A stretch of 57,287 nt of DNA, taken from positions 1-57,287 of the IMG/VR virus record IMGVR_UViG_3300031707_000020; one strand, 5' to 3'. The notes below the pieces were generated by a model that did not search any database, had not been told where the DNA came from, and saw only the letters and a program-made list of their open reading frames with translations. Shown here one piece after another: positions 13,320 through 57,104 of this stretch. The stretch comes from a virus. The position numbers and the translations under genes were made by a program. Positions within the stretch are counted from its first letter, which is position 1. Each line of letters begins with the position of its first letter.

Positions 13320-14816
13320 ATGGCGCCGTACGTTAGATTAAATGCATTGGATCAGGCTTTAGATATAGCCGGGTCTTTATTACAATCAGACCTTAGAACA
13401 TTGTCTAATGAGCCAGATGGTTATGGCGCTCCAATTTCTGGGCAATCTGGAACTGATGGTTATATATCAGCAGTTTCTTTAGGAATAGCAACTGTCACGG
13501 GCTTAACTGGGATGACCGCTCAGTCCATAGGTAGATTCTTAACCTTAGTAGATGGTTATGCTCCAGCCAATACAGGAACATTTTTAATAGTTCAATTTAA
13601 CTCAGCCGTATCTGTTGATGTTTCCAATGCATCGGCCGTAGTTAATACCACTAATCCTATTATATGGTCAGAACGAAATCCATATAGATTAGAAGATGAC
13701 TTAAACTTTGTTCGTACAGATCGTAGATTAATTAAAGGAACAACTAATTTTTATGATGCAGTTCCAACATACAGCAGACCAACCGCAACTGGCACTCTTG
13801 TTCCAGCTAATTTATCAAATATTGCCGGGAAAACTCTTGATGCGCATGCCTGGGTAATTAATCGATTATTTAGAGCCGATCCAGTTCTTGCAGGTGATGG
13901 ATATTCTATAATTAGTGCGCCTGGCGCTTTACAATATGCCGATGCAACTGATCGTACTGGCGTTCCTATTAATGATGGTTTTGACGCTGGTAATAGCGAG
14001 GCCACATATGTAGAAATAATAAATCCGGCAACAGAGGAATATCTTATTGCACGAGGTGGTTCTACTGATGGATATAGGATTTTTGGACGAACACGACAAG
14101 GAACCACTGGTGTTGAGCCAAATAGCCTTGAGGTCGAGTTCCGCGCAGTTCCAATGGGTGCGGCAGTTACTTCGTCTGTTGCATATACTTGGGACGCGTA
14201 TCAACCAACAACTGTAGATTATTACTACGGTTATCGTGAAAGAGCTGATAATCTAACTGAAACTGCCTTTAGAACGACCTTGGTAAACGGCTTGTTCAGT
14301 GATGGTGGGGCAACTACAAATATCAACAATATTCTTACCACTATTGGAACAACTATTGGCGATACATTTCTGACATTAACTAATACGGGGAACTATTTCG
14401 TATTTAGTGATTTACCAGACGGAACCCCTTCGGTAACAGAGGCGTTTAATACAATAAACACCCAAATAGGGGATAGAGTGTTTACCGGTACGGTCATTGG
14501 CAACGACGATGGTTACACGATTACACAAATACTGCAAGACCTAGCTGACGCAATATCGACAGCGAGCGTTTTAAGAATCAAAGAGATACTTGCTGTAGAC
14601 GTAAACGCCAACGTAGCTCATACTATACCCGGCGGAACATATACCATAGATCCTACTTTCAATGGACAGAATTTAAATGTTTACACACGAGGAATCTTAC
14701 GAGATCCTGGGCCGGTTGCAACAGGTAATGATTATTCTGAGACAAGCACAACACAGGTTACGTTTTATGCAAAGCAAAAAGCAGGCGATCATATCAACTA
14801 CTTTATTTACGCGTAA
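13320..14816 (+). CDS. Virion structural protein with six DGY motifs
   Basis: A 498-residue, Gly/Thr/Ser-rich beta protein. The segment 'GIATVTGLTGMTAQSIGRFLTL' followed by 'TGTFLIVQFNS' is a small beta domain I recognise from tail-fibre or baseplate proteins of large phages. The C-terminal 60 residues are a beta domain (HTIPGGTYTIDPTFNGQNLNV split across strands). DGY occurs six times, mostly in apparent loops. AGGA precedes the ATG. A strong terminator follows, marking the end of a transcription unit. It is probably a tail or capsid decoration component; the exact location is unknown. Confidence 0.65.
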   Translation: MAPYVRLNALDQALDIAGSLLQSDLRTLSNEPDGYGAPISGQSGTDGYISAVSLGIATVTGLTGMTAQSIGRFLTLVDGYAPANTGTFLIVQFNSAVSVDVSNASAVVNTTNPIIWSERNPYRLEDDLNFVRTDRRLIKGTTNFYDAVPTYSRPTATGTLVPANLSNIAGKTLDAHAWVINRLFRADPVLAGDGYSIISAPGALQYADATDRTGVPINDGFDAGNSEATYVEIINPATEEYLIARGGSTDGYRIFGRTRQGTTGVEPNSLEVEFRAVPMGAAVTSSVAYTWDAYQPTTVDYYYGYRERADNLTETAFRTTLVNGLFSDGGATTNINNILTTIGTTIGDTFLTLTNTGNYFVFSDLPDGTPSVTEAFNTINTQIGDRVFTGTVIGNDDGYTITQILQDLADAISTASVLRIKEILAVDVNANVAHTIPGGTYTIDPTFNGQNLNVYTRGILRDPGPVATGNDYSETSTTQVTFYAKQKAGDHINYFIYA

Positions 14817-14839
14817 TTTTTATTTAATCTAGATTAATA

Positions 14840-14876: not shown

Positions 14877-14893
14877 CGTTATACATAAATTAC

Positions 14894-17567: not shown

Positions 17568-17575
17568 TGGCATAT

Positions 17576-19144: not shown

Positions 19145-19906
19145 ATGGTCAATGGTATTCGTAAAGAAGATCTGGATGATTTAGATATTGTAGATTCCAT
19201 AGAATTAGCTTCTGACGGATATACAGTCTATTTGACATCTACAATATTTTCTACAATTAATGCTGGCAGTGTAATTACTATTAATTATCCTTCTGATGGA
19301 GAAGGTTTAATTACCGGTAGAGATCATTCGGCACAAACTGGAGATAGGGTAAGATTAACTGGAACTTCCGGTGGGCTGGCTGACGGTTATTATATTGTTA
19401 ATTCTATAATATCTGAAACAAGTTTTTCAGTTAATGAAGTCATAGCGTCTTCCACTGGCGGCACTATATATTTTATGTATTCCGCCGGGGCTAAAAGCGT
19501 AGGTTTTGATCCTTCTGGATTAATTACTATTACGGCTAATAATGTTCAAGATGCAATTAAAGAAATTGCTTTTAATTCTACTGGCATTTCAGAACCAATT
19601 CATAAATCTTTACGTCATTTAATTCATTTTATCGTTGATGGACCCGGCGACGGTTTTCCATCAGGATCTTATCGTGAAACATTGCCAAATGGTAATCCCT
19701 TTCCAACTTCTATTATTTGGTGGGAGTCATCTGCAAAAATTAAAAAAATTCTTGAAAGAACTTTAACATTAAATAATCAAAAAAATGCAACTATGGTTGT
19801 TTGGAAAATGTATGACACTAATGGAACTACTGTGTTAGCTACAGCAACTGATTCAATTACATATTCTGGCATATTTGAAGTTAGTAGGACTAGAACTTTT
19901 AGTTAG
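19145..19906 (+). CDS. Virion structural protein, baseplate/fibre type
   Basis: A 253-residue beta-rich protein. Two DGY motifs occur (about residues 24-26 and 80-82). A central segment 'SGLITITANNVQDAIKEI' is a motif common in phage fibres. The C-terminal 100 residues (HKSLRHLIHFIVDGPG … WWESSAKIKKILERTLTLN) read as a receptor- or carbohydrate-facing beta domain. No ribosome binding site is visible before the ATG. It is followed by a GIY-YIG nuclease. Confidence 0.6.
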   Translation: MVNGIRKEDLDDLDIVDSIELASDGYTVYLTSTIFSTINAGSVITINYPSDGEGLITGRDHSAQTGDRVRLTGTSGGLADGYYIVNSIISETSFSVNEVIASSTGGTIYFMYSAGAKSVGFDPSGLITITANNVQDAIKEIAFNSTGISEPIHKSLRHLIHFIVDGPGDGFPSGSYRETLPNGNPFPTSIIWWESSAKIKKILERTLTLNNQKNATMVVWKMYDTNGTTVLATATDSITYSGIFEVSRTRTFS

Positions 19907-20694: not shown

Positions 20695-23600
20695 ATGTCA
20701 TTTGATTCACCGGCAGCCATATTATTTTCTAGGGACGGTTATGATGTAGCTACCTTAGATGCGTATAATATAATACCACAACAAACTGGTATTATTTCTG
20801 CAGCTCGTGATGGTTCTGTTGCTAGATTTATTACTGCTGACGGATACGGCAATCAAATTGTAGTAGGTTCTGGCACTGCAGGATTTCCTGCTGGTGGAAT
20901 ATTATCTATACAGGGAGTTTCTGGTGGACAGGCAATACCTGTTACAGGAACGTTTAGCAACCCATCGGTATCTCTTATTGGAATAGCTCCGCCAGGCTCT
21001 GCAACTTATTTAGGCGGCTCAGTTACTACATTACCGCCATCATACACTGATGGTTATTTAAATGCGTTATCACTAACTACAACCGGATTATTAAGGGTTG
21101 ATGGATCAAATGTTACACAGCCTGTATCAGGCACTGTTACTGTTGTTCAACCTAATGCAGCAAACTTACATGCATTAGTAGTTGGTGCAGCGCCAGACGG
21201 TTATAATCCTATGGGCAACCCAGTTTTAGTTGCTGGATGGGACGGAACTAATCTTCATACAATTAGAACTGCTACAGACGGTACTGTTAGAATAGACCCA
21301 ACTGGAACTACAACTCAGCCTGTTTCTCAAGTTGGTGCGTGGAATGTTAGTCAAGTTACTTCTCCATGGATAACTATAGATGCAATTGCAGACGGTTATT
21401 TACAAAATATTTTAGCAAATCAAATTAACGGTACGCAACACACTATAGTAGATGGTTATGTTCAGACTAATCCTAATGTAAATGCAACGCAAGTTGGTAC
21501 GTGGACAGTTCAACAAGGCACTCCACCATGGATTACTAAAGATGGTTATGTAACTACTTCGCCACCAACATATATAAACAATACTAATAATTATTTATCG
21601 TTAACAACTACAGGACTGTTACGCGTTGATGGATCCAATGTTACTCAGCCTGTTTCTCAAGTTGGAACATGGACGGTGCAGCAGGGAACGCCGCCTTGGA
21701 CAGTTATTGGAACATCATCTGATAATAGTATAAATGTAACTACAAAACTTTCTGCATTAATAGCTAGATCAAATATAACCGCCCCAACGTGGACTGACGG
21801 TTATCAAGTTCCATTATCAGTTACTACGGACAGTTTACTTCGTATAGATGGAGTATATCCAACAGGAGCAGCTCCTGGCGCTGATGCTACTTTAATTGCC
21901 GGGTCAGTTACCACATCTCTTCCATCTTACACAAATGGGCAAATGAACAATTTGTCTTTAACAACAAATGGATTATTGCGTGTAACTGGTGGTTATGCAG
22001 ATAACACCACTAATACTATAGATAAGCTTCCAGTACTTCCAGCGATAGCAAATACTTCTCCACGATCTTGGACTGATGGCTATAAAGTACCTCTTTCTAC
22101 TTTACTTACCGGAGCATTAAGAACTGATATTACAAGTTGGATGGGTTCAACTGCCCCAACTATTGGTCAAAAAACCGCAGCTAATAGCATACCTGTTATT
22201 ATGGCGAGCGATCAGCTTGTTCAGTTGACAGGAATTATTGATAACAATATTTTTACTGATGGCACTACCAGGGTACAACCTTCTGGTTACATTTTTGATG
22301 AAGTTGCTGGTACCGCCCTTACAGAAGATGACGCTGCTGCCGCTAGAATTGATTCTAAACGCGCACAAATAATAACAATTGAAGATGGCACTACAAGAGG
22401 ATTGCGTAATACAATTAAAGGCGCATCTACTGCCGCTGTCGCTGCCGACCCATCGCTTGTAGTTACTATGAGCCCAAATACTGCGGTTATACCTATAAAT
22501 CAATTTGGTATTATTAGTACTGGAAATTCCACTAATATAAATTTGGCAGCGGGAGCAACGTTTACTGGAACTAGTATTAGTGTTTTAGGATATGAGTTAA
22601 TTCAATTTCATTTTAAATCTGATCGTCCTCATACTATTTTTATTGAACACTCTCAAGATGGAGCTAACTGGGATGTTGTGGATACATTCTATGCTAGAGC
22701 TAATTTTGGTACTAGCCAAAGTATTAAATTAGTAGATGAATTTTTCAGGGCTCGTATTACAAATACTGGTGCCAGCACTTCAACATTTTTACGTTTTGAA
22801 TGTAAATTAATGCCTATTGGGGAACCTACCCCGCGCACACTTACATCTCAAGGTAATTTTAAAGTTGCTTTACAAGACAATGAGCATGAAAAGCAGGCGG
22901 GATTTACTGCATTTGGACTTCTTAAAGTTGCTCAAGAGGGCATGATTGGAAATTTAAGATTTAATTCTACAACTATTAATACACAATGGAATCAAACTAT
23001 TACTGGTATTGGAAACTATACTTTTGGGGCCGGAGATTCCGGTATAACATTAAATACTGGAGCATCTACTAGTAGTAAAATTAGTTTAACTTCTAAACAA
23101 AAATTTTATTATGAATCTGCTCGTAGTAATCAAGTAAAAATGTCTATTATTTTGGGAGACTCTGGTGTCGCTAATAATATTAGAGAGTGGGGATTATCAG
23201 ATGGATATAATGGAGTTTTCTTACGATTAAGCGGAACTACTCTTAGTATTGTTTTACTTAATAATGGTGTAGAAACAGTTGCCCCTACAACTTCTTGGGA
23301 TAGACCAGTAACAATTGATGGCTATGGTCATCTTTGGTATATTCAATTCCAATGGTTGGGCGTTGGTAATTTTTATATTTATTATGATGAAGAGTTGGTT
23401 CATACAATTCGTTATGTAGGAACCTCAACTAATTTATCTATGGGTACGCCAGATTTACCGGTATATTTTAAAAACGAAAATACTTCTAATACATCTAATG
23501 TTTTTATGAGAATGGGGTGTGTAGGAGTAATAGCCGAAGGTGCAAATATTATATCTGGCATTGCTGATGACGGTAGTATTCAAGAAGTTAGAGTGGATTC

Positions 23601-24363
23601 TAATGGTAATTTGCAAGTAGTTACAGCTACTGTTTCTGCCACAACATTTATAGGTCTTATTACTGGATTTTTGACTCTTGGAGGCGGCACTTCAAACACT
23701 TTAAATCCTGTTAGAGCAACTACATATAATGAGCAATCGACTAGCGCCGGACGATCTATTTCTTCTGCTAACGTTAATGATACAAGTGCAGGCACTGGCG
23801 CTCAACAAGTAACTATTATATATTACAAAAGTGATGGTTATGGACCATTTACTGAAGTAGTTACTATGAATGGAACATCTGCCGTTAATACTACAAATAC
23901 TGACATATGTTTTATTGAAAAAATGTTTGTATCTAGAACTGGTTCTGGAGGATTTAATGCTGGCGTTATTACTTTGTTTGTTGGAACTGCCGGCGGTGGT
24001 GGAACTTTAGGAACAATGGGAGTTGGAAATTTAGTCGCTGCAACAGGAGATAATACTACATTATGGGCGCATCATTATGTTCCTCCAGGAAAAACTGCAT
24101 CATTAGCTACAGTTATTCTTAGTAATTTCGGAGGAACCGGATCTGGTATTACTACTATGATTTTGAAAGCTAAAAAAATTGGTGTAACCGGTGCAGCTGA
24201 TGTATTAATTAGTGATCTTATTGCTGTGCCAACTGGTAATGCATTAGTTAGACAATTAGGCATTCCAATTAGAGTTGTGGGACCAGCAAGGGTTTTGGGA
24301 TATACAATTCCAGCATCTAACAATACTAGTAGCGAATTATCATTTGATTTCTCGGAGATATAA
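20695..24363 (+). CDS. Large tail-fibre-like virion protein with 12 DGY motifs
   Basis: A 1222-residue protein. Residues 100-480 are repeats of 'LSLTTTGLLRVDGSNVTQPVS' type units split by 'GTWTVQQGTPPW', a phage fibre repeat family. Residues about 610-1000 include two beta-sandwich-like domains (FHFKSDRPHTIFIEHSQDGANW; then WYIQFQWLGVGNFYIYYDEE), the latter also present in the protein at 27165. DGY occurs twelve times, the highest count in the window, e.g. SWTDGYKVPLS. A fibre, appendage or baseplate-wedge role is likely. No enzymatic motif is seen. Confidence 0.7.
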   Translation: MSFDSPAAILFSRDGYDVATLDAYNIIPQQTGIISAARDGSVARFITADGYGNQIVVGSGTAGFPAGGILSIQGVSGGQAIPVTGTFSNPSVSLIGIAPPGSATYLGGSVTTLPPSYTDGYLNALSLTTTGLLRVDGSNVTQPVSGTVTVVQPNAANLHALVVGAAPDGYNPMGNPVLVAGWDGTNLHTIRTATDGTVRIDPTGTTTQPVSQVGAWNVSQVTSPWITIDAIADGYLQNILANQINGTQHTIVDGYVQTNPNVNATQVGTWTVQQGTPPWITKDGYVTTSPPTYINNTNNYLSLTTTGLLRVDGSNVTQPVSQVGTWTVQQGTPPWTVIGTSSDNSINVTTKLSALIARSNITAPTWTDGYQVPLSVTTDSLLRIDGVYPTGAAPGADATLIAGSVTTSLPSYTNGQMNNLSLTTNGLLRVTGGYADNTTNTIDKLPVLPAIANTSPRSWTDGYKVPLSTLLTGALRTDITSWMGSTAPTIGQKTAANSIPVIMASDQLVQLTGIIDNNIFTDGTTRVQPSGYIFDEVAGTALTEDDAAAARIDSKRAQIITIEDGTTRGLRNTIKGASTAAVAADPSLVVTMSPNTAVIPINQFGIISTGNSTNINLAAGATFTGTSISVLGYELIQFHFKSDRPHTIFIEHSQDGANWDVVDTFYARANFGTSQSIKLVDEFFRARITNTGASTSTFLRFECKLMPIGEPTPRTLTSQGNFKVALQDNEHEKQAGFTAFGLLKVAQEGMIGNLRFNSTTINTQWNQTITGIGNYTFGAGDSGITLNTGASTSSKISLTSKQKFYYESARSNQVKMSIILGDSGVANNIREWGLSDGYNGVFLRLSGTTLSIVLLNNGVETVAPTTSWDRPVTIDGYGHLWYIQFQWLGVGNFYIYYDEELVHTIRYVGTSTNLSMGTPDLPVYFKNENTSNTSNVFMRMGCVGVIAEGANIISGIADDGSIQEVRVDSNGNLQVVTATVSATTFIGLITGFLTLGGGTSNTLNPVRATTYNEQSTSAGRSISSANVNDTSAGTGAQQVTIIYYKSDGYGPFTEVVTMNGTSAVNTTNTDICFIEKMFVSRTGSGGFNAGVITLFVGTAGGGGTLGTMGVGNLVAATGDNTTLWAHHYVPPGKTASLATVILSNFGGTGSGITTMILKAKKIGVTGAADVLISDLIAVPTGNALVRQLGIPIRVVGPARVLGYTIPASNNTSSELSFDFSEI

Positions 24364-24366: not shown

Positions 24367-25560
24367 ATGCCAATTACATTTAGCAATTCACAAACTGTAT
24401 TATCAGATAATTGGACATATTTTAAATCTATACTGTCTGTCAAAACTATGTTAGTTCAATATCTTGATGATGGCATTACTTATTCTATTTTTGCCTTTGA
24501 TGGATCGTTAGTTTATTCTTGTTCAATTTGGAAAGGTGATGTGCCCTATGGCGTCTCATTAACTTATAGTCAAGAACAAAATGATATAGATAAAGCAGAC
24601 TTTGAAACTAATTATAAAACAAAAGCTAATGCTTCATTAAATCCCATTAATGCAAATGGCATTTCTTTATCAACTATAGAGCCAAGAGTTGGTTCAGAAG
24701 TTATTTATGCTACTCATAATTTTTGCGATCGAACAACTTGGTTTGGAGATAGCGCAAGAGTTAATGGTGAAGTTTTAACAGATTCTGGCGACGGTTATGT
24801 TTTTAATAGTTCACACATTAATTGGATTGATATGCGAACTGGTAGAGTATTAGATGACGATGGGTTAGTAGAAGAACAACAATTATTAAATCCAAGCGAT
24901 CCTCATGGTTATCAAGTTATTGTTAGTGTAGATGGTTATCTAAAATCTCCTCATGAAATTTTTGAAACTGCTGGTGGCGATTATGAAATCTTTTATGACG
25001 ATGGTTACGTAAAATTTGCCGAATCTCAGGCTGGCAAAACTGTAACAGCATCATATTCATATGAGAATGGAAGTACATTTTATACAAAACCGCTTCCGGG
25101 TAAGACGTTAAAAATAGAGGCGGCTGAAGCAGACTTTTCAGATGATATTGGACAAACAGATACTATTGAATATTCTGTGTGGGGCTTGGTGGATGTTTTT
25201 GCTCCACAATATTTAGATACCAATGGTGGTCCATATCCTTCAGGAACTAAAATTCTATTAAAACAAGGATATTATAAGCGCTATACTCAAATTCTTCGTG
25301 AGGCAATTGGAGCCTTTCCATCTTTACAAGGTAATGGGGTTTTAGATGAACACAAAGGTTTATCTATAAAAGAGTTTAGAAGACGGTCTCGTGGCGGATT
25401 ACATACCATGCAATCTATTCCATTTAGATATGCTACAGTTAGAGATTTATTTTCAGACTATGGAATGGAATTAAGAGTGAAATTATTACACGATAGAGTA
25501 TTTTATGGGGAGATTTCTACTATAACATTTTATTGTACTTCAGTAAATAAAGGATCATAA
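24367..25560 (+). CDS. Virion structural protein
   Basis: A 397-residue protein starting 3 bp after the large fibre gene, with GGAG upstream. It has three DGY motifs (GDGYVF, VDGYLK, DDGYVK). The central part reads 'HEIFETAGGDYEIFYDDG' followed by a strand-rich region and a C-terminal 'FRYATVRDLFSDYGMELRVKLLHDR'. It has beta-structured, capsid-decoration or baseplate-like character. It is followed by a GIY-YIG gene overlapping its stop by one base (TAATG). Confidence 0.6.
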   Translation: MPITFSNSQTVLSDNWTYFKSILSVKTMLVQYLDDGITYSIFAFDGSLVYSCSIWKGDVPYGVSLTYSQEQNDIDKADFETNYKTKANASLNPINANGISLSTIEPRVGSEVIYATHNFCDRTTWFGDSARVNGEVLTDSGDGYVFNSSHINWIDMRTGRVLDDDGLVEEQQLLNPSDPHGYQVIVSVDGYLKSPHEIFETAGGDYEIFYDDGYVKFAESQAGKTVTASYSYENGSTFYTKPLPGKTLKIEAAEADFSDDIGQTDTIEYSVWGLVDVFAPQYLDTNGGPYPSGTKILLKQGYYKRYTQILREAIGAFPSLQGNGVLDEHKGLSIKEFRRRSRGGLHTMQSIPFRYATVRDLFSDYGMELRVKLLHDRVFYGEISTITFYCTSVNKGS

Positions 25561-30594: not shown

Positions 30595-30659
30595 ATTAGA
30601 AATATATCATTCAATTCACATATTAATGACATCCACGTTAATAGATTTGGTTGGAATAT

Positions 30660-31016
30660 ATGGCATACAAACATTTTAAAAAAACACAGGGCAGAGATTT
30701 TAATTTTTATACTATCGTTCAAGTCAATTGGACTCAGTTTGGAGCCTCCGACGGTTTTACTGTTGAAGATGGTTATGGCCCAGATATTATAATTAGATTT
30801 TCAACACAAGGATTTAGCCTGATTAATTACGGGGCAACGTCATCCAATTCTATAGAGTATTCATTTAATGGCACAACTGTAGCTGGTGATATGGTGCCAG
30901 GAACTCCAACAGCCGCGTTAGTTTTTGATTATAGGACAGTTGATATGATTTGGTTTAGGCTGAAGGCAGGATCCACTGGTCCAGTCGATGTAAGAGTTGA
31001 AGCCTGGTCAAAATAA
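30660..31016 (+). CDS. Small virion protein homologous to fibre N-terminus
   Basis: A 118-residue protein starting at ATG 30660 (MAYKHFKKTQGRDFNFY); a TTG at 30651 is less likely. It aligns along its length with residues 1-110 of the 880-residue protein (both have GRD-NF, S-I-E-Y/V-S-F-N-G-T-x-V and M/K-I-W-x-R-L-K-x-G). It carries SDGFTVEDGYGP, with one DGY. It may be a cap, adaptor or separate copy of the fibre attachment domain. Confidence 0.65.
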   Translation: MAYKHFKKTQGRDFNFYTIVQVNWTQFGASDGFTVEDGYGPDIIIRFSTQGFSLINYGATSSNSIEYSFNGTTVAGDMVPGTPTAALVFDYRTVDMIWFRLKAGSTGPVDVRVEAWSK

Positions 31017-37049: not shown

Positions 37050-37092
37050 CTTAATAAGAATGTGGCAATATTAATAACATGACATGTATTGT

Positions 37093-37461
37093 ATGGCTGA
37101 TTTACTCTTTTATTTTCCTGGCCAACAAGCCACCTTTACATTAGAAATATTTAATTCTGATGGCTATAGATTTGATGGCTATGTTGATGGCTATGAACCA
37201 ACTGTTGATAGGGTGTTTGGGCCATTATTCACAGAAATGGACGGATATCTTTTAGGACAAGACGGCTATTTCCCACAACCAATGAAAAAAATAGATACTG
37301 GGCTCTATACGTTTAAGCTTACTATTCCGAAAGGCGCTGCGTCGATCGGGAGCTATCTAGTTGACGTTTCCTATACAAGTTTGATGACAACATATAAGAA
37401 GCAAAAATTATATCAAATTGTTGTTACATCTCCATTTGGCAATTTTTCGGCAACTACTTAA
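37093..37461 (+). CDS. Small virion protein with five DGY motifs
   Basis: About 122 residues from ATG 37093 (MADLLFYFPGQQATFTLEI); ATG 37084 is an alternative. An Ig-like or beta-sandwich pattern is visible (FTLEIFNSDGY … GLYTFKLTIPKG … SYLVDVSYTS). It has the densest DGY load seen: SDGYRFDGYVDGYEP plus MDGYLL and QDGYFP, five in 122 residues. The same fold pattern seems present at the N-terminus of the protein at 38727. It probably decorates the tail or baseplate. Confidence 0.68.
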   Translation: MADLLFYFPGQQATFTLEIFNSDGYRFDGYVDGYEPTVDRVFGPLFTEMDGYLLGQDGYFPQPMKKIDTGLYTFKLTIPKGAASIGSYLVDVSYTSLMTTYKKQKLYQIVVTSPFGNFSATT

Positions 37462-39626: not shown

Positions 39627-39668
39627 AAGCACACTAAATAACCAAAATTCATGTTATATATATTAAAC

Positions 39669-44638: not shown

Positions 44639-45634
44639 ATGCCAATAGGAAGAGGCATCTTTACAATATCCAGAATTACAGTTATACCAACAGAGACGGT
44701 TATTTTGTATACATCTACATCGTCCCCGGCTAGATGTGGCGAGCCAGTAGATTATACAATCGCAGTTATTGCATTTCCATCGGCACCAAACGGATCTATA
44801 GTTTCTTTGGTTGATAATGATGACGGATATGTATTTGGATATGGCACATTATCTGGTGGATACGCAATTATTACTACTTCATTTTCTAACAATATAACAA
44901 GCACGTTTAATGTAAGAGCGAATTATTTAGGATCTACAATTGGCGCTACATATATGCCAAGTCAATCTGCCGCAAGATTGCAATCAGTAGTTCCAGATAA
45001 TTCAGTGTTTATAGAGCCTATGGCATTACCAGCATCTACATGTGGTTTAAGCACAATGACATCTGCAGACGTTTTTGCAGCGTATAACAGTCCATCTACA
45101 GGCGACGGATATGTAGAGTATAAATGGGACATTGGATTTGAGCCGGCCGTTCTTGCAACTGGAATATCTATTAATGGCAGTGGTCACGCTATAGTTAATT
45201 TAGTTTGGCCTACTGAGTTTGTCAGGCCAGTGAATATAAATGTTACGGCAAAATTTTGGTCAACGGTGCCATGTTTAGAGTCATCTAATTATGTTCCTGC
45301 TGGCACGATTACTTTGGATGTTGCGCATGACACTGTAACTACGATAATTCCAACATTTGACCCTGTGGCAAGCCCAAATACAGTAGTATATAACGTTTCT
45401 GTCACATCATTATCACCAGGAATTATTAATGGAACTGCAACAATTATGGCAACTGGGGCTGGAATTCTTAATATAACACCAATACCAATCTCAATAGTTA
45501 ATGGAGTTGGGTCAATGGATGTTCCTTATTTTGAGTGGCCAGCAACTGGGTTTTATGAGGTTGTAGCGTCTTTTACTTCGACGGAGTGCTGGAATAATAG
45601 TCAGGGTTTAGCTTTTACTACCGTTAACCCATAA
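44639..45634 (+). CDS. Ig-like virion protein
   Basis: A 331-residue protein made of about three Ig-like beta-sandwich repeats (ETVILYTSTSSPARCGEPVDYTI pattern split by 'GSIVSLVDNDDGY', then STFNVRANYLGS and later FYEVVASFTSTECW). AGGA precedes the ATG. It has two DGY motifs (DDGYVF, GDGYVE). Ig-like proteins on phage tails or capsids give weak surface adhesion. No signal peptide is seen. It lies directly downstream of the fibre protein, 10 bp apart. Confidence 0.65.
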   Translation: MPIGRGIFTISRITVIPTETVILYTSTSSPARCGEPVDYTIAVIAFPSAPNGSIVSLVDNDDGYVFGYGTLSGGYAIITTSFSNNITSTFNVRANYLGSTIGATYMPSQSAARLQSVVPDNSVFIEPMALPASTCGLSTMTSADVFAAYNSPSTGDGYVEYKWDIGFEPAVLATGISINGSGHAIVNLVWPTEFVRPVNINVTAKFWSTVPCLESSNYVPAGTITLDVAHDTVTTIIPTFDPVASPNTVVYNVSVTSLSPGIINGTATIMATGAGILNITPIPISIVNGVGSMDVPYFEWPATGFYEVVASFTSTECWNNSQGLAFTTVNP

Positions 45635-46085: not shown

Positions 46086-49000
46086 ATGAGCAATTATCCT
46101 GGACAAATCGATACCGATATAGAGCTACCGCCTGTAAACGATAACGTGACAGAGGTTGGCTCCGAAGCTATAAATGCTTGTAGGGATGCGATTTTTGCAA
46201 TAGAAAATGAAATTGGAATTGGCGCATCCGGATCTGCCGGAACAATAGCTTTACGCCTTGGTTTAAGCTTAAATCCAGACGGATCAATTAAGCCGTCTGC
46301 TATTGCTTCAATGGGCCTGGTTACGCTTCCAATTTATAATTCACACATAGCGAGCAACGCGCAAATCCTAGAGTCAAAGCTCAAGATGGATTTTAAGACA
46401 CAGGATTTATTTAATTATATAAAAGATTTATCCACTGACGTTAACAGTGCCTTAGGATGGATAAATGTTACCGGGGTTAAATTAGACCCGCATCTTTCTG
46501 GAGCATTATATAAGCATAATCTTTCAGATATATCAGTTAATTCATCTTCACAATTTAAAAATAAGTTTGAATTATTAAGAAATAACGCCAGCCTACTTAC
46601 TTTATTTGGTGATATTAATGATGATTTAATTCAACATCAAAGGGCAGATGGTTATGGCACAAGTATACAAAGTGTAACGACATATGGAGGAGATATTTAT
46701 CCGGCTAATTTTGCTCATTATGCAGGCGGGATATATCTAAATACAAGCCGTTTTTCTACTATACCGCAAACTGCAACATCTATACAGGCGCTTGCACAGT
46801 TTATTGATGATGCGTCAATCTTTTTATATGGCACAAGAATACAAAATTTTTATGCAAATGGAGTGTCAAGAACATCAAGATCATCAACTCTTGGTTTAGA
46901 TGGATATGGACAATCACTTGTTTCTCCAACATTAGTAACAACGTATTTATTAAATAATGGAACATCAACCAGTCCAGTTGATAATATTGATACTGGCGAT
47001 GATATTATAGAGTTTACTCCAGATGCAGGCGTATTAAGTAATAATTTATTTGATGCGCAATTTGCATTAGTTAAAGTCGGCGATAAAATAACTGTAAATT
47101 ATGGTGGAATAGAGGCGTCATTCATAATTAATGAAAAAAAATATATTCAAAGCGGATTAAGCAAAAAATTTATTGTTCGTATAAATGGAAAAAATTTGGC
47201 TTATTCAACCTCTGCTCACGCCAGAATTGACAAGCCATTATATAATAAAGATAAGGGCGGCGTATTAGCAGTTGCACCATCTGGTAATTATTTTGAAACA
47301 ATACCAGTAAGTTTAGTTCCTCCAAGCTTAATAGTTGGCCAACCAAGATCTGCAGTGGCATTTGGATTAGGGTTTGATGCCCAATTATTTAATGCAACTC
47401 ACCATTTATTATATCTTGCATTGTTTCCAACTGGTAATATTGCTGACGGATACACTATTTTGCCAGGTATTGATGTAACTGGGGATCTGGGGACAAAACC
47501 AGGTTCATATACATTAGATTCAATTGTAGAGTCCACCAATAATTCATTAAGAAAAAAGGGTTATAATTATCGGTTCATAGCTTTTCAATTTGGTGGTGAG
47601 TTTGGGATTATGTTGGCTGATTCATATAATGGCGCAGGATTTTCTATTATCAGTGGCGTTGTTGGTAATTCTGGCGCTTACGATCAGGGTTTAACTACGC
47701 TAAATTTTTCTAATAACGTTGTTGGATTATTCGGCGTTGATGGTAAGGCTGCGCCCGATCCACTTGGGTTAGGAGCAAATGGGGCTAATGTTGCAAGCCC
47801 ACCATATGTTGGAAATTATTTATCTGCTGAAGCCGCCGCAATTCCAACTAAACTATTTGTTCCGTTAAAAAGAAACAATTATTATGTTAATGGTATTGAG
47901 CGAGAAAAATTAAATATAGACATTGGACAAACATTAGACGGATACGGCGACGGTTATTGGTTTGGTACGGTACTATCAAGAACAATTATTCCTGGTATAA
48001 GGGTCAAAACTATATATAGGATTAACCAAGAATTATCCGCATCAAAATTAAATGCTGGCAAAACATTGGTGATTCAATCCAATGGTGCAGGGTCTATTGT
48101 TGATTATGGTCGATTTATAATAGAAGATGTTACATTTACAGTTTGTCCCGGGGTCACTTGCACAGATATAACCGTATATGACGCAGTGCATTCAACGGGA
48201 ATAACCCCGTATGTCTCTTTAGATGTTGGAAATCCAGTTAGAATATATTTTGGCGCAGACTCGGTTGGATTTAATCAAGAAAGCGCGACTGATTTCGTTG
48301 GAACATCTGTTATATTTAAGCGCTCTTTCGAAATATTTGCAGATCAAAATGGCGACACATTTTCACATGAAAGAGCAAGGTTTGTAAATAATGGCGGCAC
48401 TATAACTATTAACGGAATAACTTTATATGGGCCCGGTCCGTCGCCATTCACAACATCATTTGATTTTGTTAATATATCGCCAAAATTACGCGGATATAAA
48501 TTTACATCTGGAACTGCATCTATAAATAAAATCAGCTTAGCGATATCAGGGTATCAAAATACTACCGGTGTATTTGACGGTTACTTGGCAATGTATGATG
48601 GAATAAGTCTTACAAAAATTGGCAAGCAGGTCTCTGGTAGAGTTGGTGAAGTGACCAGATTTTACGATGAAACAAATGTAGATTATATAGATTTAGCACT
48701 AGGATTCAACTCATCTACAGAGTTTACTTCATATGGCGCACAGATTATGGATATTCAATTATTTCCAAGTTTGCGGCTAGATGAAGAATTATTTCCAATA
48801 GCAACATGCCAACTTCAACCAATTCTATTTACGCACTCATCAAATATAGCTTACGTTAAAGATATTAGAGATTTTGGAAATGTAAGCGAAAAACAGCTTA
48901 CTACTTCAGCATTAAATTATCTTTCAGCGGCAGATAGATTGCTTCACGAAAATGGGGTAGTTAGAGGGTTCGATATATCTGAAGATGCCGCGAATCCCAT

Positions 49001-52000
49001 AAAAGATCAGGTCAAAATAAAGGGTGGTGTTGCGCTAGTTAATGGAAAATTGGTAGAGATTAATAATACAACAATTTCAATTCCTGTTGTTAAAGAGAAG
49101 GATGTAGTATTTGGAGACTTATATAATATAAATTGGGCCATATGTGCTAATGATAGAAGCGAAATACAGGCCATCCCGCTGTTAGATTATGACGCTTCAC
49201 TTTCAACTTTTAATGCCGGCAGCAGAATATTTTGGGCAATAAATACGGCAACTGGATTATCTTATCCGCTTGATGCAGCAATGTTTTCAGATTTAATTAA
49301 TAAACGAAAAGACCTTTGCATTCTTCATATAGCGTCATCTACAGTTACAGGGACTGGTTTAAGCGTAGATATTTCATTATTACTAACTGATGCAAGAAAA
49401 TATGTTAATGATGAAGGGTCTAATTTACCACTTAAACTTACAGTTGGTGATGCACAAGGTAATTTTAAAAATCCAATTGCAATATTAAACTGGGTAAAAT
49501 ATAATAACGCATTTAATGGGCGAGCTATAATTAAAGGTGCAAGCACTTCAATTAGCTCAACTATTAGAATGGACTTTACTAACCCTGTAGTTATAGATGG
49601 CGAAAATAGCGGAGCACTGATATTTGATGGAAGCTGTGTTATTGGGTCAAATATAACCTTTAAAGATATTTCTCTAACATTTAATGGAAGTTTAGCTGTT
49701 GTTTCGTCAGCGCAAAATATAATTTTTGATAATTGTAATATAGTGGTTAATAATTCGGGGTCTTCAACAGTATTTGCGTTATCAAACACAAATAATTTTA
49801 TACTGAAAAACTCTTCGTTAACAGCCGTATTTGCGACTGCTCCAGGGGGAAAGATATTTGATTTAAGTAATAGCACAGGGTTCAAGATTCTGAATACAAA
49901 TTTATCAGCATCATATAACGTATCTCCAGGGACGCAAGGAACCGTTTTATCAATAACTGATTCTGCCAATGTTGATATTTCAGGGTCTACATTTACTGGC
50001 AATTTTATGAAGTTTGTGAATATAACAAATTCCACATTAGATTCATTTGATCTAAAACTTTATAACAATACGATTACTACAACCCACGCAGCCACATCTG
50101 ATATAGGGTGGATATCAGCTGATTTGGTTAATAGTTATACTGGTATAATTTATTCTGATGTATCCTCTTCATTATCAAATATATTTATTGATGGGTGCAT
50201 ATTTAATTTTAGCCCAGCCGCTGCAACAACCGATCGTTTATCATTCATTACGTTTGTATTATCTGGCGGAGCATCAGTTCTAAAAAATTTAAAGATAAGC
50301 AATTGTCAGTTTAATACAAATGTTTCTAGCTTAAATGATAAAAGATCTGCTATAGCAATAATTAATACTTCTATAAATGGCACGTCATCATCTGTTCAGC
50401 CAGTATTATTAAATGCAACAATATCTAATAATATTTGCAATAAAGATCAGGCGATAATACTGACATCAAAAATGGTTAATGTGTTGGGTGTAGATTATAT
50501 GACATATCCAGGGTTAACCGCTGTAAACTGTGATGTATCAAGCAACGTTTGTGGCACTATAGGTTATTTCGTATCATCGGCTACAAAAACAAATAATCAG
50601 CCGTCATTTACGAATTCTAATAGTCGTGGGTCCGGATTAAATATAATTAGTAATGATTGTAGATATATTTCCAACCTTAATTCTACCGGTAAATATTTTG
50701 CTTTATCAAAGTTAAGCACTAATTATTCGCAGTATCCTTCCGGGTATGTTAGCATTAAAAATAATATAGTAAACTGGATACATACCGGGTGTTCATATGA
50801 AGAAAATAGCTCATTAGATATTTCAGACAATTCTTTAATGGCTTATGATATTGCTTATTTGGATGATTTCGGAGACAATGCTGCTTATATCACAACTTCA
50901 TTGGCCTATACAATTCCAACATATAAATACGCAATTGTAGTTAGCGGAAATTATAATAATAACTTGGGCCTTGTGCCAGATGTTGGAAATGATTCAAATG
51001 TAACAGTGTCTGGTAATACAACAAATACTGGCTTATATGTTAACTCAATATCTGTTCCAATTAATTATGAATATGGCGGATATGTATGCAGTTTAGCATC
51101 GGCTCAAATAACAAAAAATACATTCAGGGGAATTGCAAATAACATTACAGCGCTAACCGGAAGTCATGGCATTGTTGCAGGCGGGTCTGTAACATATATC
51201 ACGAACAACAGAATATACAGAGGGGCAAATAATATACGCGCCTATATTTTTCAAGGGCACCCATATTCTAGCCCAACGGCAACAAGCTATGGAAATATAA
51301 CAGATAATTATTTTGATAGTTATAGTTGCAATGGTACCTCTGATGAAGATGTGAGCAAATCAATTCCAGACCGTTGGACGTACGAAAGAAATAAAAATCA
51401 AACAGGATGGTTATCTGTGCCAATGGCAGTTAGCGGCGAGTATATAAATCTAAATGATACAATTGATTTATTAACTATATTACCAATGCCAGATCAACCT
51501 GGTCCAGCATACCAAACATATTCATCAAATGTTGGGTATATAAAAGATACCGCGACGCCTATAGAATTTAAGGCATATGGTTGGCAGAAAAACATAAGCG
51601 CATTGTTACCGTTAAATGTTCGCCTTGTATATGTAAAATCTGGAATTAGAGTCTTTGATTCTGTATTTCAAACTCCATCAGATTCTCCACCCGTAGATTC
51701 TCTAATGCGTCTGCACGTGTCAAAAATGTTAAGTTCTTATAATTCTACCAATACCAACCTAGATTATTTTACGCCTGCATTTACAGAAAATAAAGCAACT
51801 GTATTTTCTTTATCAACCGATACATCAATTACAGGCGGTGGAAATGCAACGCTTACAGGTTTGCAAATGAATGCAATTTCATTAACTCAATATAATTCTG
51901 TACAAATAGAGGGCACTGGGTTGGAAGAGGCGTTTATAACCGGTAAAGCATACGAATTTGTTGTATCATATGAATTAAGGTTGCAAAGGGCCGTTAGCAA

Positions 52001-52049
52001 AACAATAAATATGGCCGTATCACCAATAGTTGTAAAATATAGGTGGTAG
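46086..52049 (+). CDS. Giant virion protein with beta-helix domain (1987 aa)
   Basis: The largest gene of the window. Residues 1-150 are a helical attachment module (SNYPGQIDTDIELPPVNDN … QDLFNYIKDLSTDVNSALGW) seen in other large phages (from memory). The middle is a series of beta domains. Residues about 1150-1750 form a right-handed beta-helix pattern (repeated N-I-x-F-x-N-C-x-I and x-F-x-L-x-N-S coils, e.g. NIIFDNCNIVVNNSG), typical of tailspikes that bind or cut polysaccharide. It has six DGY motifs, including LDGYGDGYW. It ends in TAG. No catalytic triad can be named with confidence. Confidence 0.72.
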   Translation: MSNYPGQIDTDIELPPVNDNVTEVGSEAINACRDAIFAIENEIGIGASGSAGTIALRLGLSLNPDGSIKPSAIASMGLVTLPIYNSHIASNAQILESKLKMDFKTQDLFNYIKDLSTDVNSALGWINVTGVKLDPHLSGALYKHNLSDISVNSSSQFKNKFELLRNNASLLTLFGDINDDLIQHQRADGYGTSIQSVTTYGGDIYPANFAHYAGGIYLNTSRFSTIPQTATSIQALAQFIDDASIFLYGTRIQNFYANGVSRTSRSSTLGLDGYGQSLVSPTLVTTYLLNNGTSTSPVDNIDTGDDIIEFTPDAGVLSNNLFDAQFALVKVGDKITVNYGGIEASFIINEKKYIQSGLSKKFIVRINGKNLAYSTSAHARIDKPLYNKDKGGVLAVAPSGNYFETIPVSLVPPSLIVGQPRSAVAFGLGFDAQLFNATHHLLYLALFPTGNIADGYTILPGIDVTGDLGTKPGSYTLDSIVESTNNSLRKKGYNYRFIAFQFGGEFGIMLADSYNGAGFSIISGVVGNSGAYDQGLTTLNFSNNVVGLFGVDGKAAPDPLGLGANGANVASPPYVGNYLSAEAAAIPTKLFVPLKRNNYYVNGIEREKLNIDIGQTLDGYGDGYWFGTVLSRTIIPGIRVKTIYRINQELSASKLNAGKTLVIQSNGAGSIVDYGRFIIEDVTFTVCPGVTCTDITVYDAVHSTGITPYVSLDVGNPVRIYFGADSVGFNQESATDFVGTSVIFKRSFEIFADQNGDTFSHERARFVNNGGTITINGITLYGPGPSPFTTSFDFVNISPKLRGYKFTSGTASINKISLAISGYQNTTGVFDGYLAMYDGISLTKIGKQVSGRVGEVTRFYDETNVDYIDLALGFNSSTEFTSYGAQIMDIQLFPSLRLDEELFPIATCQLQPILFTHSSNIAYVKDIRDFGNVSEKQLTTSALNYLSAADRLLHENGVVRGFDISEDAANPIKDQVKIKGGVALVNGKLVEINNTTISIPVVKEKDVVFGDLYNINWAICANDRSEIQAIPLLDYDASLSTFNAGSRIFWAINTATGLSYPLDAAMFSDLINKRKDLCILHIASSTVTGTGLSVDISLLLTDARKYVNDEGSNLPLKLTVGDAQGNFKNPIAILNWVKYNNAFNGRAIIKGASTSISSTIRMDFTNPVVIDGENSGALIFDGSCVIGSNITFKDISLTFNGSLAVVSSAQNIIFDNCNIVVNNSGSSTVFALSNTNNFILKNSSLTAVFATAPGGKIFDLSNSTGFKILNTNLSASYNVSPGTQGTVLSITDSANVDISGSTFTGNFMKFVNITNSTLDSFDLKLYNNTITTTHAATSDIGWISADLVNSYTGIIYSDVSSSLSNIFIDGCIFNFSPAAATTDRLSFITFVLSGGASVLKNLKISNCQFNTNVSSLNDKRSAIAIINTSINGTSSSVQPVLLNATISNNICNKDQAIILTSKMVNVLGVDYMTYPGLTAVNCDVSSNVCGTIGYFVSSATKTNNQPSFTNSNSRGSGLNIISNDCRYISNLNSTGKYFALSKLSTNYSQYPSGYVSIKNNIVNWIHTGCSYEENSSLDISDNSLMAYDIAYLDDFGDNAAYITTSLAYTIPTYKYAIVVSGNYNNNLGLVPDVGNDSNVTVSGNTTNTGLYVNSISVPINYEYGGYVCSLASAQITKNTFRGIANNITALTGSHGIVAGGSVTYITNNRIYRGANNIRAYIFQGHPYSSPTATSYGNITDNYFDSYSCNGTSDEDVSKSIPDRWTYERNKNQTGWLSVPMAVSGEYINLNDTIDLLTILPMPDQPGPAYQTYSSNVGYIKDTATPIEFKAYGWQKNISALLPLNVRLVYVKSGIRVFDSVFQTPSDSPPVDSLMRLHVSKMLSSYNSTNTNLDYFTPAFTENKATVFSLSTDTSITGGGNATLTGLQMNAISLTQYNSVQIEGTGLEEAFITGKAYEFVVSYELRLQRAVSKTINMAVSPIVVKYRW

Positions 52050-52052: not shown

Positions 52053-52865
52053 GTGGCAACTAATAACATTGTAAAATCAGATCTATACAAAATACATCAT
52101 GTGGTTCAAGGCTCGATGATTGTATTTCCAAAAGAAGCTATTATTTCTTTTTTACGAGATCATTTTTCAAGAGACAGTTATTATCATTATTCTAAAGATG
52201 AGTGGGGATTTGCCAATGTTGTCGATCATACCGACCTCCCGTTAGGCTCAGGTTTACATGATGATACAACAACTCGTGTATTTATTGGCGAAAACTATAG
52301 ATTTGATGGCATTTATTATCCAGCTATCTTAGTTAAAAATGGCGGCAGCAGATCAGTTCCAATTTCAATTAATCGAGAAGAGGGCGCTGTCCAATGGGCC
52401 GTTCGTGAGTTTAATGATGGATATGGAAATAGAGCTTTTTATAAATATCCTGAGAGTTTCTTATTTCAAGGGGCATGGGAAGGAAGCATTATTATAGATG
52501 TGGTGACCAGGAGTATTAGAGCAAGAGACGATTTGCTTGAAATTGTAGCAATGTGCTTAACCGACATTTCTTTTAAGGCTTTACAAAAAATAGGGGTTGT
52601 AATTAAACCACTTAACATAGGATCTCCGTCAGAAATCGATGATAGAAATGATAAATTATTTAAACAATCAATTACATTGGAAATACGATCCGAATGGCGT
52701 AGAGAATTGCCAATAAATAATATAATAGAAATTATAAATTTTTCCATGGATTTTGCCGATGTAAGTAATAATTCTCCTGTGGCAACTAACTTATCTATTA
52801 ACACGAGATCGACGCTGCTTGATAATTTAATGAGCGTATTATTTTTAACTACGCCTACTCCATGA
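52053..52865 (+). CDS. Virion structural protein (baseplate/neck type)
   Basis: A 270-residue protein starting at GTG 52053, 3 bp after the giant gene. The C-terminal half (AWEGSIIIDVVTRSIRARDDLLEIVAMCLTD … ITLEIRSEWRRELP) has the pattern of phage tail-terminator or neck-type proteins. It has one DGY in NDGYGNRAFYK. Its stop overlaps the HNH gene by ATGA. The position between the giant spike and the tail sheath (after two nuclease genes) supports a tail completion or connector role. Confidence 0.6.
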   Translation: MATNNIVKSDLYKIHHVVQGSMIVFPKEAIISFLRDHFSRDSYYHYSKDEWGFANVVDHTDLPLGSGLHDDTTTRVFIGENYRFDGIYYPAILVKNGGSRSVPISINREEGAVQWAVREFNDGYGNRAFYKYPESFLFQGAWEGSIIIDVVTRSIRARDDLLEIVAMCLTDISFKALQKIGVVIKPLNIGSPSEIDDRNDKLFKQSITLEIRSEWRRELPINNIIEIINFSMDFADVSNNSPVATNLSINTRSTLLDNLMSVLFLTTPTP

Positions 52866-54132: not shown

Positions 54133-54296
54133 TAGTTATGTCGGAAATATAGGTGAATAATTCTACATTTTAATGATAACAATCACTCTATAGGTCATAT
54201 GTCTTTTAGATATCTATATCAACAATATATTAATTTCATCATACTGCCTATGATAAAGCACTCAATGCCAACCAATTGTTTTAACGGAGAAATATA

Positions 54297-57104
54297 ATGC
54301 CTAGTATTCCTGGCGCAAATAACGTCCTTCCAGGCGTATTTACTGATGTAATCACTCAGTCACGCGGAGTTTCGGTCCCTGGCGGTATTCGGATCTCCGC
54401 AATTATTGGAGAAGGTTCGAGAACTGAAGTGATGGTCTCATCAGCCCTTGGGGGTGGTCAAGACGGACTTAATTCGTCATATACTTCAAGTTCTGGCAGT
54501 GATGGCCGACATTTTCAGCTAAGCCTCTTCCCTCTAATTTCTAACCGAACCTCTGTATTTAGGAATGGGGTGCCACTTGTTGGTCTAGAATCCACAATAG
54601 ACTTAAACTCTTTTAGCGGCTCTTATGATTATCGTATAGATATAGATACTGGTAAAATAGAGCTTCAGCAAGCACACTTGGTTGATCTTGGCGGGTCATT
54701 TTATACTCCGCTTAGCACAAATATTGGAACCGGCTCGTTAAATAGTTTAAGCTTGGTTGATGTAAATGCTTCGTCTGAGACATGGACAATTCGATGTGTT
54801 TCTGTACAAAGAAATAACTTAAATGCTCCAATTGCAAATACGGCGAAGTTTGTAGCTTTTGGCTCGGTTTCAGGCGCAAAATTAGATGCAAATGGAAATC
54901 CGGTCGTATGGGTTGCAAATAATCAGGTAGTATCAAATGGAATTCTTCAATTTAGTATATCTGAATCGGCGACTCCTTTCCGTGAGGGCGATGCGTTTAC
55001 TGTGAAGGTAAGCAGCGGGGTGCTTACAAAAAATGATACATTAACTGCAGAATATATTTCAATTGCAGACTTAAATGATCCAGAGTTTCTCGAAAGCATG
55101 GATTCGGTTACTAAAAAGCATGGCCTTGTAAGCCTTGATAATAATCTTTCTTTAGGTTGTCAGTTGGCTTTTTCTAACTCAACACCAGGCGTAATGTGTG
55201 TTCAGGCAGCTCCGGCAATCCCTCGTCGACAATCGTTCTTAGTTGTTGATGAGTTTGCTGCAACATCAACAAATAATGACGATTTTACGTTCCCATTTCC
55301 TCTTGGTGTTATGCCAGATTCAGGTTCACAGATACATTTCTTTGTTAAAAACAATGCAACAAATGTAGAATCCCAAGTATTGCCGAACAAATTTAATTAT
55401 TATACTCTTGACACTTTAGGCAATCCAACTACATCTACATTTACACAAGATGATACTTTGGCCCCAAGCGGTTATTCGTTCTCTTATACTGTAGTTAGCA
55501 AAGAGGCCTCAATAATTTCAGGGTTCGATGGCTATATTGCACGTGACCCGGCATCTACTGGAAATAAAGCTTTCTTTAGCTACAGTTCTAGTTTTGATGC
55601 AAGTTTCGTTGGTAAGAAATTAAAGATTATCGATGCAACAAAAGTGGCAAATCAAGATTCAAGCCATGATTATACAAATAGCTTAGGTGTCGATGGATAT
55701 TTAACAATTAATAATGTTGTAAACGGTCAGTTATTAGTTGGATTTGATGCAATTTCTAGCGCTACATTTACATTAACATCAATTACGGCTCATGCAACAC
55801 AAGATCTTGCTTTCCAAGTTACTAATTTTGACGAAACGAACGTTCTAACATTTAATGGGTTAGATGGTTATATTACAGGGCCATCTGGAACAACCGCTAC
55901 ATTCTGGAGCCTTGGCGGAATTGATTTTACTACATTATCTTTACCAACAATTAAGCAACTAAAGATAAGTGGAAATTCCTCTTTTAACGGAACATATGAT
56001 ATAGTTTCTGTTAACGGCACAAATAATATAACAATTCGAAAAGTGTTTAATATTGAAAGCAACTTACGATTTGAAGTTATTGACCAAGATCAATCAAGTT
56101 ATTATATCGTTCTAAATCATAATGTTGCCCCAAATGGTTATGCAGTTCGAGCAACATATGTGGATTCAAAGGATGCTTCGTTCTTTGATGCAGGCTGGAT
56201 TACCGCTTTAGAGGCTCTTGAATTGGCAGAATGTGATATATTGGTACCACTGCCAAAACAAACAAAATCAATAATCTTCCAAAATACACTTATTCATTGC
56301 AAAACAATGAGCAATATAATGAATAAGAAAGAGCGCGTTATGTACACCGGCGCAATTGCCGGCCTTAAACCAGAGAATATTACTGGTGCAAGTCCAGCTG
56401 CTGTTGAAGATATTGGCATTCTCGAAGGCATCCAAGGCGACGAAGTAAATGAAATATTAGCCGGAAACATCGAAGACTTAACAAATTATTCAGTCTCTGA
56501 TGCATTTGGAAACACCTTCCGATGCGTATATTTCTACCCAGATCAAATAGTGGTTCAAGCTGGTGCAGATAATGTGCTTGTTGACGGCTTCTATATTGCG
56601 GCTGCTGCGGCTGGTTATACCTCATCCCTAAATCGTGTAGAAATGCCTCTTACAAATAAGGTGCTGTCAGGATTTACAATTCTACGCAATAAGCAATATT
56701 CGCCAACTGTTCAATCACAATTGGCATCAGCTGGCGTTAGCTTACTTGTCCCTGTCCAAGGTGGTGGAAATATCGTATGGGGACGAACAACGACCCAAAG
56801 CGGCTTCCCAGAAGAAGAAGAAATTTCAATCGTCTTCATCAGAGATCGCCTTGCCAAATCGCTTCGACAAGGATTTAAGGGTTACATCGGCATCCCAGAA
56901 GATAATGATACACTCGCAACATTAAGTGGTCGGGCAATTGGGCTGTTGACTTCGTTTGTATCGCAAGGTATGATTACAAACTATAAGGATCTTTTGGTAC
57001 AACGTAATTCAGTAGACCCTAGACAGTATGATGTGTCTGTAAAAGTACAACCATCCTACCCAGTTAATTATATTTACATAAAGGTATCACTGGGCGTTCT
57101 GTGA
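54297..57104 (+). CDS. Contractile tail sheath protein
   Basis: A 935-residue protein, long for a sheath. The start MPSIPGANNVLPGVFTDVIT with 'SRGVSVPGGIRISAIIGEGS' is typical of sheath N-termini, which join neighbouring subunits. A large variable middle (about 100-600) carries beta insertion domains and three DGY motifs (about 410, 465, 522). The C-terminal domain has the sheath signature (LVVPLPKQ-like 'DILVPLPKQTKS', 'EEEEISIVFIRDRLAKSLRQGF', ending 'YPVNYIYIKVSLGVL'). GGAG precedes the ATG. It polymerises around the tail tube and drives contraction. Confidence 0.92.
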   Translation: MPSIPGANNVLPGVFTDVITQSRGVSVPGGIRISAIIGEGSRTEVMVSSALGGGQDGLNSSYTSSSGSDGRHFQLSLFPLISNRTSVFRNGVPLVGLESTIDLNSFSGSYDYRIDIDTGKIELQQAHLVDLGGSFYTPLSTNIGTGSLNSLSLVDVNASSETWTIRCVSVQRNNLNAPIANTAKFVAFGSVSGAKLDANGNPVVWVANNQVVSNGILQFSISESATPFREGDAFTVKVSSGVLTKNDTLTAEYISIADLNDPEFLESMDSVTKKHGLVSLDNNLSLGCQLAFSNSTPGVMCVQAAPAIPRRQSFLVVDEFAATSTNNDDFTFPFPLGVMPDSGSQIHFFVKNNATNVESQVLPNKFNYYTLDTLGNPTTSTFTQDDTLAPSGYSFSYTVVSKEASIISGFDGYIARDPASTGNKAFFSYSSSFDASFVGKKLKIIDATKVANQDSSHDYTNSLGVDGYLTINNVVNGQLLVGFDAISSATFTLTSITAHATQDLAFQVTNFDETNVLTFNGLDGYITGPSGTTATFWSLGGIDFTTLSLPTIKQLKISGNSSFNGTYDIVSVNGTNNITIRKVFNIESNLRFEVIDQDQSSYYIVLNHNVAPNGYAVRATYVDSKDASFFDAGWITALEALELAECDILVPLPKQTKSIIFQNTLIHCKTMSNIMNKKERVMYTGAIAGLKPENITGASPAAVEDIGILEGIQGDEVNEILAGNIEDLTNYSVSDAFGNTFRCVYFYPDQIVVQAGADNVLVDGFYIAAAAAGYTSSLNRVEMPLTNKVLSGFTILRNKQYSPTVQSQLASAGVSLLVPVQGGGNIVWGRTTTQSGFPEEEEISIVFIRDRLAKSLRQGFKGYIGIPEDNDTLATLSGRAIGLLTSFVSQGMITNYKDLLVQRNSVDPRQYDVSVKVQPSYPVNYIYIKVSLGVL

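Follow-up and report, generated by a model that had tools for sequence, protein, structure and literature searches.

A strict Asp-Gly-Tyr tripeptide in the tail exterior of an undescribed huge-phage lineage, a candidate sequon for tyrosine glycosylation

We found that the tripeptide Asp-Gly-Tyr (DGY) is under protein-level selection in the exterior tail proteins encoded by IMG/VR record IMGVR_UViG_3300031707_000020. This viral contig of 57,287 bases (G+C content (GC) 0.34) is hereafter the window, that is, the whole stretch of DNA that was analysed, and comes, as a fragment, from a huge-phage lineage not described before. In its relatives a glycosylation cassette is the constant neighbour of these genes, at a locus beyond the reach of the window. 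Probably, D-G-Y-{P} is the acceptor sequon at which tyrosines of the tail exterior undergo a phage-encoded modification; O-glycosylation by the linked cassette is the most likely form.

Fifty-one in-frame DGY were counted in 15 proteins of the window (8,559 amino acids (aa) in total), between positions 13320 and 57104. This agrees exactly with the hand count of the initial annotation, whose estimate of one or two expected occurrences also held: composition gave 1.8, and 20,000 within-protein shuffles resulted in a mean of 1.81 and a maximum of 9. In the 498-aa protein, which had no Pfam or PHROG match, 6 were observed against 0.18 expected. The remaining five orders of D, G and Y were found once or twice each in the window, and the single-residue variants four times (DGF), once (NGY) or never (DGW, EGY). 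Amino-acid composition as a cause is rejected by the shuffles and the permuted motifs. Tyrosine comes next after 58% of all DG dipeptides in the 15 proteins. As had been reported, the window holds a single further DGY, in an HNH-type gene.

The corresponding DNA word, GAYGGNTAY, occurred 57 times on the plus strand and not once on the minus strand, as compared to 4 and 6 for the reversed-pattern control, and 52 of the 57 words were in frame with a predicted gene. The codons used for DGY are varied and broadly match those of the same genes; TAT/TAC usage is identical, and the deviations concern GAC (35% versus 17% elsewhere) and GGG (4% versus 15%). Because the codons vary and broadly follow gene usage, selection acts at the protein level and not on a DNA word. 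A DNA signal is rejected by the strand, frame and codon data. A copied repeat, already discounted in the initial annotation on account of the varied codons, is rejected as well, since the 642 distinct DGY contexts collected show no flanking consensus. Furthermore, no DGY occurs in the many homing endonucleases or in the NAD-dependent DNA ligase that are encoded between the virion genes of the window; these proteins provide an internal control from the same genome.

Searches with the sheath and the 524-aa protein retrieved about 30 IMG/VR relatives on contigs of up to 473 kb (GC 0.25-0.48). Of these, G007 (locus L015) represents almost the same phage as the window. A search of 50,697 deposited phage records gave no match for the 1347-aa tail, 299-aa and tubulin proteins of the lineage, and its family 4 glycosyltransferase (GT4) matched one Microcystis phage at 23% only. 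No named lineage was matched, and by sequence these appear to be undescribed huge phages. The 383-kb contig in which one relative lies had been binned with a Chitinophagales (Bacteroidota) genome, which weakly hints at the host.

The strand bias of GAYGGNTAY was observed in nearly all relatives having virion genes (38 vs 3, 93 vs 17, 57 vs 15, 76 vs 1, 101 vs 9 and 103 vs 1, among others). In the pooled non-redundant sequence of the clade, 446 DGY were counted against 23.6 expected (18.9-fold, z 87), and the next-ranked of the 3,905 tripeptides tested reached a z of 10.7. The variants stayed at 1.0-fold (DGF), 0 (DGW), 1.6-fold (NGY), 0.26-fold (EGY), 0.94-fold (DAY) and 1.25-fold (DSY) of chance. 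Statistically, recognition requires exactly Asp, Gly and Tyr, and this strictness at all three positions points to a molecular recognition in which Asp is needed for its carboxylate, Gly for its backbone and Tyr for its hydroxyl. A scan of all viral contigs for DGYGDGY returned mostly other phages with DGY clustered in short repetitive stretches and was uninformative alone. A mild excess of GAYGGNTAY was also seen in another jumbo phage, Bacillus phage G (NC_023719), with whole-genome strand counts of 52 vs 6 and a reversed control of 19 and 7.

The tripeptide had been announced as virion-wide. Instead, it is restricted to proteins of the sheath, the outer tail/baseplate and the fibres, the labels 'outer tail' and 'fibre-like' being derived from gene position, size and sheath neighbourhood and not from structures. 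When the genomes of the relatives were divided into bins, DGY was near chance in the replication and other regions and mostly 5- to 25-fold enriched in the tail bins. It is dense in the fibre-like proteins (50 vs 2.4 expected), in the outer tail proteins of 1347, 2387 and 1365 aa (83 vs 6.3), in the sheath (17 vs 1.2), and in the families of 1972, 522, 299, 274 and 119 aa; the five orthologs of the 125-aa protein hold 19 against 0.4 expected. In the relatives, DGY was absent from the major capsid protein, the portal and the maturation protease, and also from a 1666-aa protein of the tail module and from proteins of 706, 787 and 559 aa. In the sheath of the window, the three DGY are all N-terminal to the conserved core (about residues 750-935); in known contractile sheaths the core encircles the tube and added domains face outward. 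In a modelled 1069-aa tail protein, for which a fold search gave no significant PDB match, the six DGY tyrosines were all in coil, versus half of all its tyrosines. AlphaFold prediction of the 524-aa protein from three sequences gave an unusable model, with a predicted local distance difference test (pLDDT) score of 32.

Two families show peculiar arrangements. The divergent member G039 encodes two fibre-like giants, of 5,319 aa with 38 DGY (83558-99517) and of 3,245 aa with 26 DGY (64929-74666), the former with a recurring KLTVDGY[IL]DP element. The 1347-aa tail protein (L313:1783-5826 and orthologs) contains dockerin-like segments with the consensus GDVDGDG..D..DL.LL..YL and DIDGDF.IT..DGYLL.SYI, the second of which includes one widely conserved DGY.

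Alignment of ten families gave 119 DGY columns, of which 12 were occupied in at least 80% of the sequences and 66 in one sequence only, and the number of DGY differs widely between orthologs. Where DG was kept and Tyr lost, the replacement was most often Ser (22 cases), then Asn, Thr or Val (10 each), and Phe in only 8. At DGY columns other members carry DGS, DGN, DGT, DGV, DGF or DGQ, in line with an earlier remark that in two fibre motifs homologues bear DGQ where this phage has DGY. Pro is depleted after the Tyr (8 vs 29 expected), and there is a mild preference for W, G or V. In these alignments, sites appear to be gained and lost independently of position, as sequons are. Such a turnover of positions with retained number is as in sequon-type modification.

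The cassette adjoins the 1347-aa tail gene and is co-directional with it. Its members are GT4, two family 2 glycosyltransferases (GT2s, about 234 and 276 aa), a membrane-anchored protein (about 340 aa), a dTDP-glucose-4,6-dehydratase-like enzyme and a phage tubulin. Every record showing the locus has the cassette, with GT4, nearly always the GT2s and usually the dehydratase-like enzyme; divergent members retain GT4 and GT2s, with an additional large GT2/sugar-transferase protein in at least one of them. GT4 was present in 18 of 18 viral records with the 1347-aa tail gene, and reference phages lacking the tail gene also lacked GT4. Twenty-nine homologs of the 234-aa GT2 were retrieved at 35% identity or more, all of them in such loci, and 26 of the 29 loci were 5- to 13-fold enriched in DGY; at 24 generic GT2 loci no consistent enrichment was observed. 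A scan of bacterial genomes for GT4 found nothing. The dehydratase matches solved dTDP-glucose 4,6-dehydratases at 3e-69, and among the solved relatives are GmaR and SunS, GT2-type enzymes which glycosylate proteins or peptides in the cytoplasm. No flippase, polymerase or oligosaccharyltransferase was recognised by Pfam among the cassette genes. The tubulin (PF00091, PhuZ-like) neighbours the cassette in the main part of the lineage (G009 152932-155736; ortholog L018:14352-15683), and in one locus a formamidopyrimidine-DNA glycosylase (MutM/Fpg-like) gene is inserted in the cassette (L277:10681-11526).

We propose that the sheath, outer tail/baseplate and fibre proteins, once made in the cytoplasm during infection, would receive a modification from the cassette, on the Tyr hydroxyl in exposed DGY loops. 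The cassette comprises GT4, usually two GT2s and the dehydratase-like enzyme, the last of which would supply a 6-deoxy sugar nucleotide, and a multiply glycosylated tail surface would result. One may speculate that the phage gains shielding from proteases or defences, solubility or adhesion. For the broader statement, that a huge-phage lineage possibly of Bacteroidota has its own cytoplasmic D-G-Y-{P} tyrosine glycosylation which sugar-coats sheath, baseplate and fibres, we hold the chances to be about even.

Several observations weigh against this proposal. That the tyrosines are modified, and by what chemistry, we infer from sequence, and the cassette enzymes would be those acting on them. 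The surface exposure of DGY is only suggested, the tail model being of moderate quality (pLDDT 62). The window and G007 stop short of the cassette locus, so that no glycosyltransferase is present in the window because the contig ends before it; given synteny with G009, the window phage's own cassette would lie about 30-40 kb past the right end. The cassette also borders replication genes, and its target could be DNA or the host envelope. G034 keeps GT4 and two GT2s although its tail module holds no more than 5 DGY and its 1347-aa ortholog lacks the tripeptide; G023 has DGY and, by search, neither GT2 family; some divergent members show no recognised dehydratase at the locus. Finally, cassette and DGY occur together within a single lineage and could be linked by common descent alone, and no cassette-less member with tail genes was found for contrast.

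Among the meanings put forward in the initial annotation, a tag for modification is strengthened by the strict motif, the lack of flanking consensus, the turnover and the cassette linkage, while the DNA signal fails on strand, frame and codons. A protease site and a metal loop fit poorly, and docking of a decoration protein found no positive evidence.

The alternative that survives best, although we consider it improbable, is that DGY is the sequon of another tyrosine modification (sulfation, phosphorylation, nucleotidylation, oxidation or cross-linking) carried out by an unrecognised phage or host enzyme, with the glycosyltransferases acting elsewhere. The preference for Tyr over Phe and for Asp over Asn or Glu would suit any chemistry of the Tyr hydroxyl, G034 combines a cassette with few DGY, and most genes of the lineage genomes are unannotated. 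However, the cassette was the only candidate recognised by Pfam among selected genes beside the tail genes. Moreover, the Chitinophagales bin of one relative showed no excess (248 DGY vs 304 for the reversed control), which makes a host-wide DGY system unlikely.

Somewhat less probable still is a non-covalent role, in which many copies of DGY on the tail would serve as a docking or receptor-binding site for a decoration protein, a chaperone or the host surface. The restriction to tail exterior and fibres, the many repeats and the conserved small proteins of unknown function encoded in the module would all agree with it. Nevertheless, strict recognition of three residues in varied surroundings with no flanking preference would be more typical of enzymes, no clade-wide binding protein was identified, and orthologs differ widely in DGY number. 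We give the same low likelihood to a cassette that glycosylates phage DNA or the host envelope and accompanies DGY by ancestry only. Its location between replication and tail genes points that way, and phage glycosyltransferases often modify DNA or the host serotype (PMC12619734). However, a thymidylate synthase/hydroxymethylase homolog (PF00303) was present in only 4 of 10 cassette-bearing large records, so a thymidylate-synthase-type route to glycosylated bases is not shared across the lineage, and the cassette holds no recognised flippase or polymerase, as noted above. A purely structural role, as a turn or as a metal-binding loop preferred in beta-rich tail domains, is very unlikely. In its favour, DG commonly starts turns, DGS, DGN, DGT and DGV alternate with DGY in the same columns and the modelled sites are in coil. 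However, DGF, DGW and NGY would also be acceptable in a turn and are all unenriched, and some proteins of the module lack DGY. The strand bias is missing in the distant phages Rctr197k and SCTP-2, with which a structural domain is shared, and no second acidic ligand is conserved nearby.

The predicted genes of the window that bear on DGY are listed in Table 1, together with the stretches of homing endonucleases (HNH, GIY-YIG and endonuclease VII-type), which lie in very high number between the virion genes.

Table 1. DGY-bearing genes and homing endonuclease stretches of the window
Feature	Position	Strand	DGY	Remarks
HNH-type gene	6546..6995	+	1	Sole other in-frame DGY of the window; outside the DGY system
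498-aa protein	13320..14816	+	6	DNA at 13416, 13455, 13551, 13896, 14067, 14508
253-aa protein	19145..19906	+	2	
1222-aa virion structural protein	20695..24363	+	12	phrog_1645 virion structural protein, 5e-20
397-aa protein	24367..25560	+	3	Weak ortholog in G009
880-aa virion structural protein	27165..29807	+	2	phrog_1645, 8e-91
121-aa protein	30651..31016	+	1	G001 ortholog keeps site
282-aa fibre-tip-like protein	31940..32788	+	1	C-terminus weakly similar to tumour necrosis factor
125-aa protein	37084..37461	+	5	3 within 12 residues; orthologs in several relatives
299-aa conserved protein	38727..39626	+	1	Site in 18/23 orthologs
524-aa conserved protein	41698..43272	+	5	Includes conserved DGYDGY
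435-aa protein	43321..44628	+	1	
331-aa protein	44639..45634	+	2	
1987-aa conserved protein	46086..52049	+	6	Includes DGYGDGYW
270-aa conserved protein	52053..52865	+	1	Adjoins sheath; site in 15/16 orthologs
Tail sheath (contractile), 935 aa	54297..57104	+	3	PF17482, PF04984; last window gene
Homing endonuclease stretches	7513-13210, 14894-18457, 19934-20692, 25560-26285, 29809-30594			
Homing endonuclease stretches (continued)	31020-31943, 35354-36073, 37454-38545, 39651-40526, 52862-54132			

Intein-like insertions occur in the relatives as well, for example in PhoH. The ligase inside the virion block of the window (33177-35051) is phage-encoded and matches phrog_3869. A patatin-like phospholipase (PF01734, 7e-29) is encoded within the tail gene block (26270-27154) and adjoins the same genes in relatives, at about 40-50% identity.

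If the proposal is correct, tyrosine glycosylation would have its first strict tripeptide sequon in DGY, and phages their first sequon of this kind, as judged from the open literature searched. In those open papers we found, like the initial annotation, no description of a DGY or Asp-Gly-Tyr motif, and a review of bacterial O-glycosylation does not mention it (PMC12645811). Such a sequon would offer a simple and portable rule by which tyrosines could be glycosylated in the cytoplasm, and the candidate enzymes are named. A function would also be gained for glycosyltransferases that are conserved in many huge phages and often guessed to act on DNA. Phages would then be able to cover their tails with sugars, much as animal viruses do with their spikes, which would bear on host range, defence evasion and tail stability.

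Among known systems, the moraphages possess four core glycosyltransferase groups whose function was left open (PMC12619734). They and the ERM phages resemble the present lineage in large size, in these four groups and in their predicted Bacteroidota hosts; compared by description only, they come with no mention of tubulin or of a DGY motif (PMC12619734). In mycobacteriophage virions, capsid and tail-tube subunits are reported to carry glycans at their C-termini (Freeman et al. 2023, as cited in PMC12619734). As far as that account goes, structural proteins are glycosylated there, presumably by phage glycosyltransferases, whereas here the glycosylation would concern an internal tripeptide that recurs in many outer tail proteins unrelated to one another, and the major capsid protein is spared. 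Tyrosine O-glycosylation has been described in the S-layer proteins of Gram-positive bacteria (PMC2943079). In the part of that work considered here, the likeness lies in a sugar on the Tyr hydroxyl, an outward-facing array protein, and glycosyltransferases with a supply of deoxysugar (rhamnose); the difference is that transfer occurs during secretion by a proposed oligosaccharyltransferase, with no tripeptide sequon named (PMC2943079). Phage tails, in contrast, assemble in the cytoplasm, and an oligosaccharyltransferase was not recognised in the cassette. The N-glycosylation sequon N-X-S/T of viral surface proteins is short, strict, over-represented and restricted to the surface, and Pro is disfavoured in it. 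It differs from DGY in residue chemistry, compartment and enzymes; what the two have in common is a short strict motif, the turnover of positions, the disfavoured Pro, the over-representation and, probably, the location at the surface.

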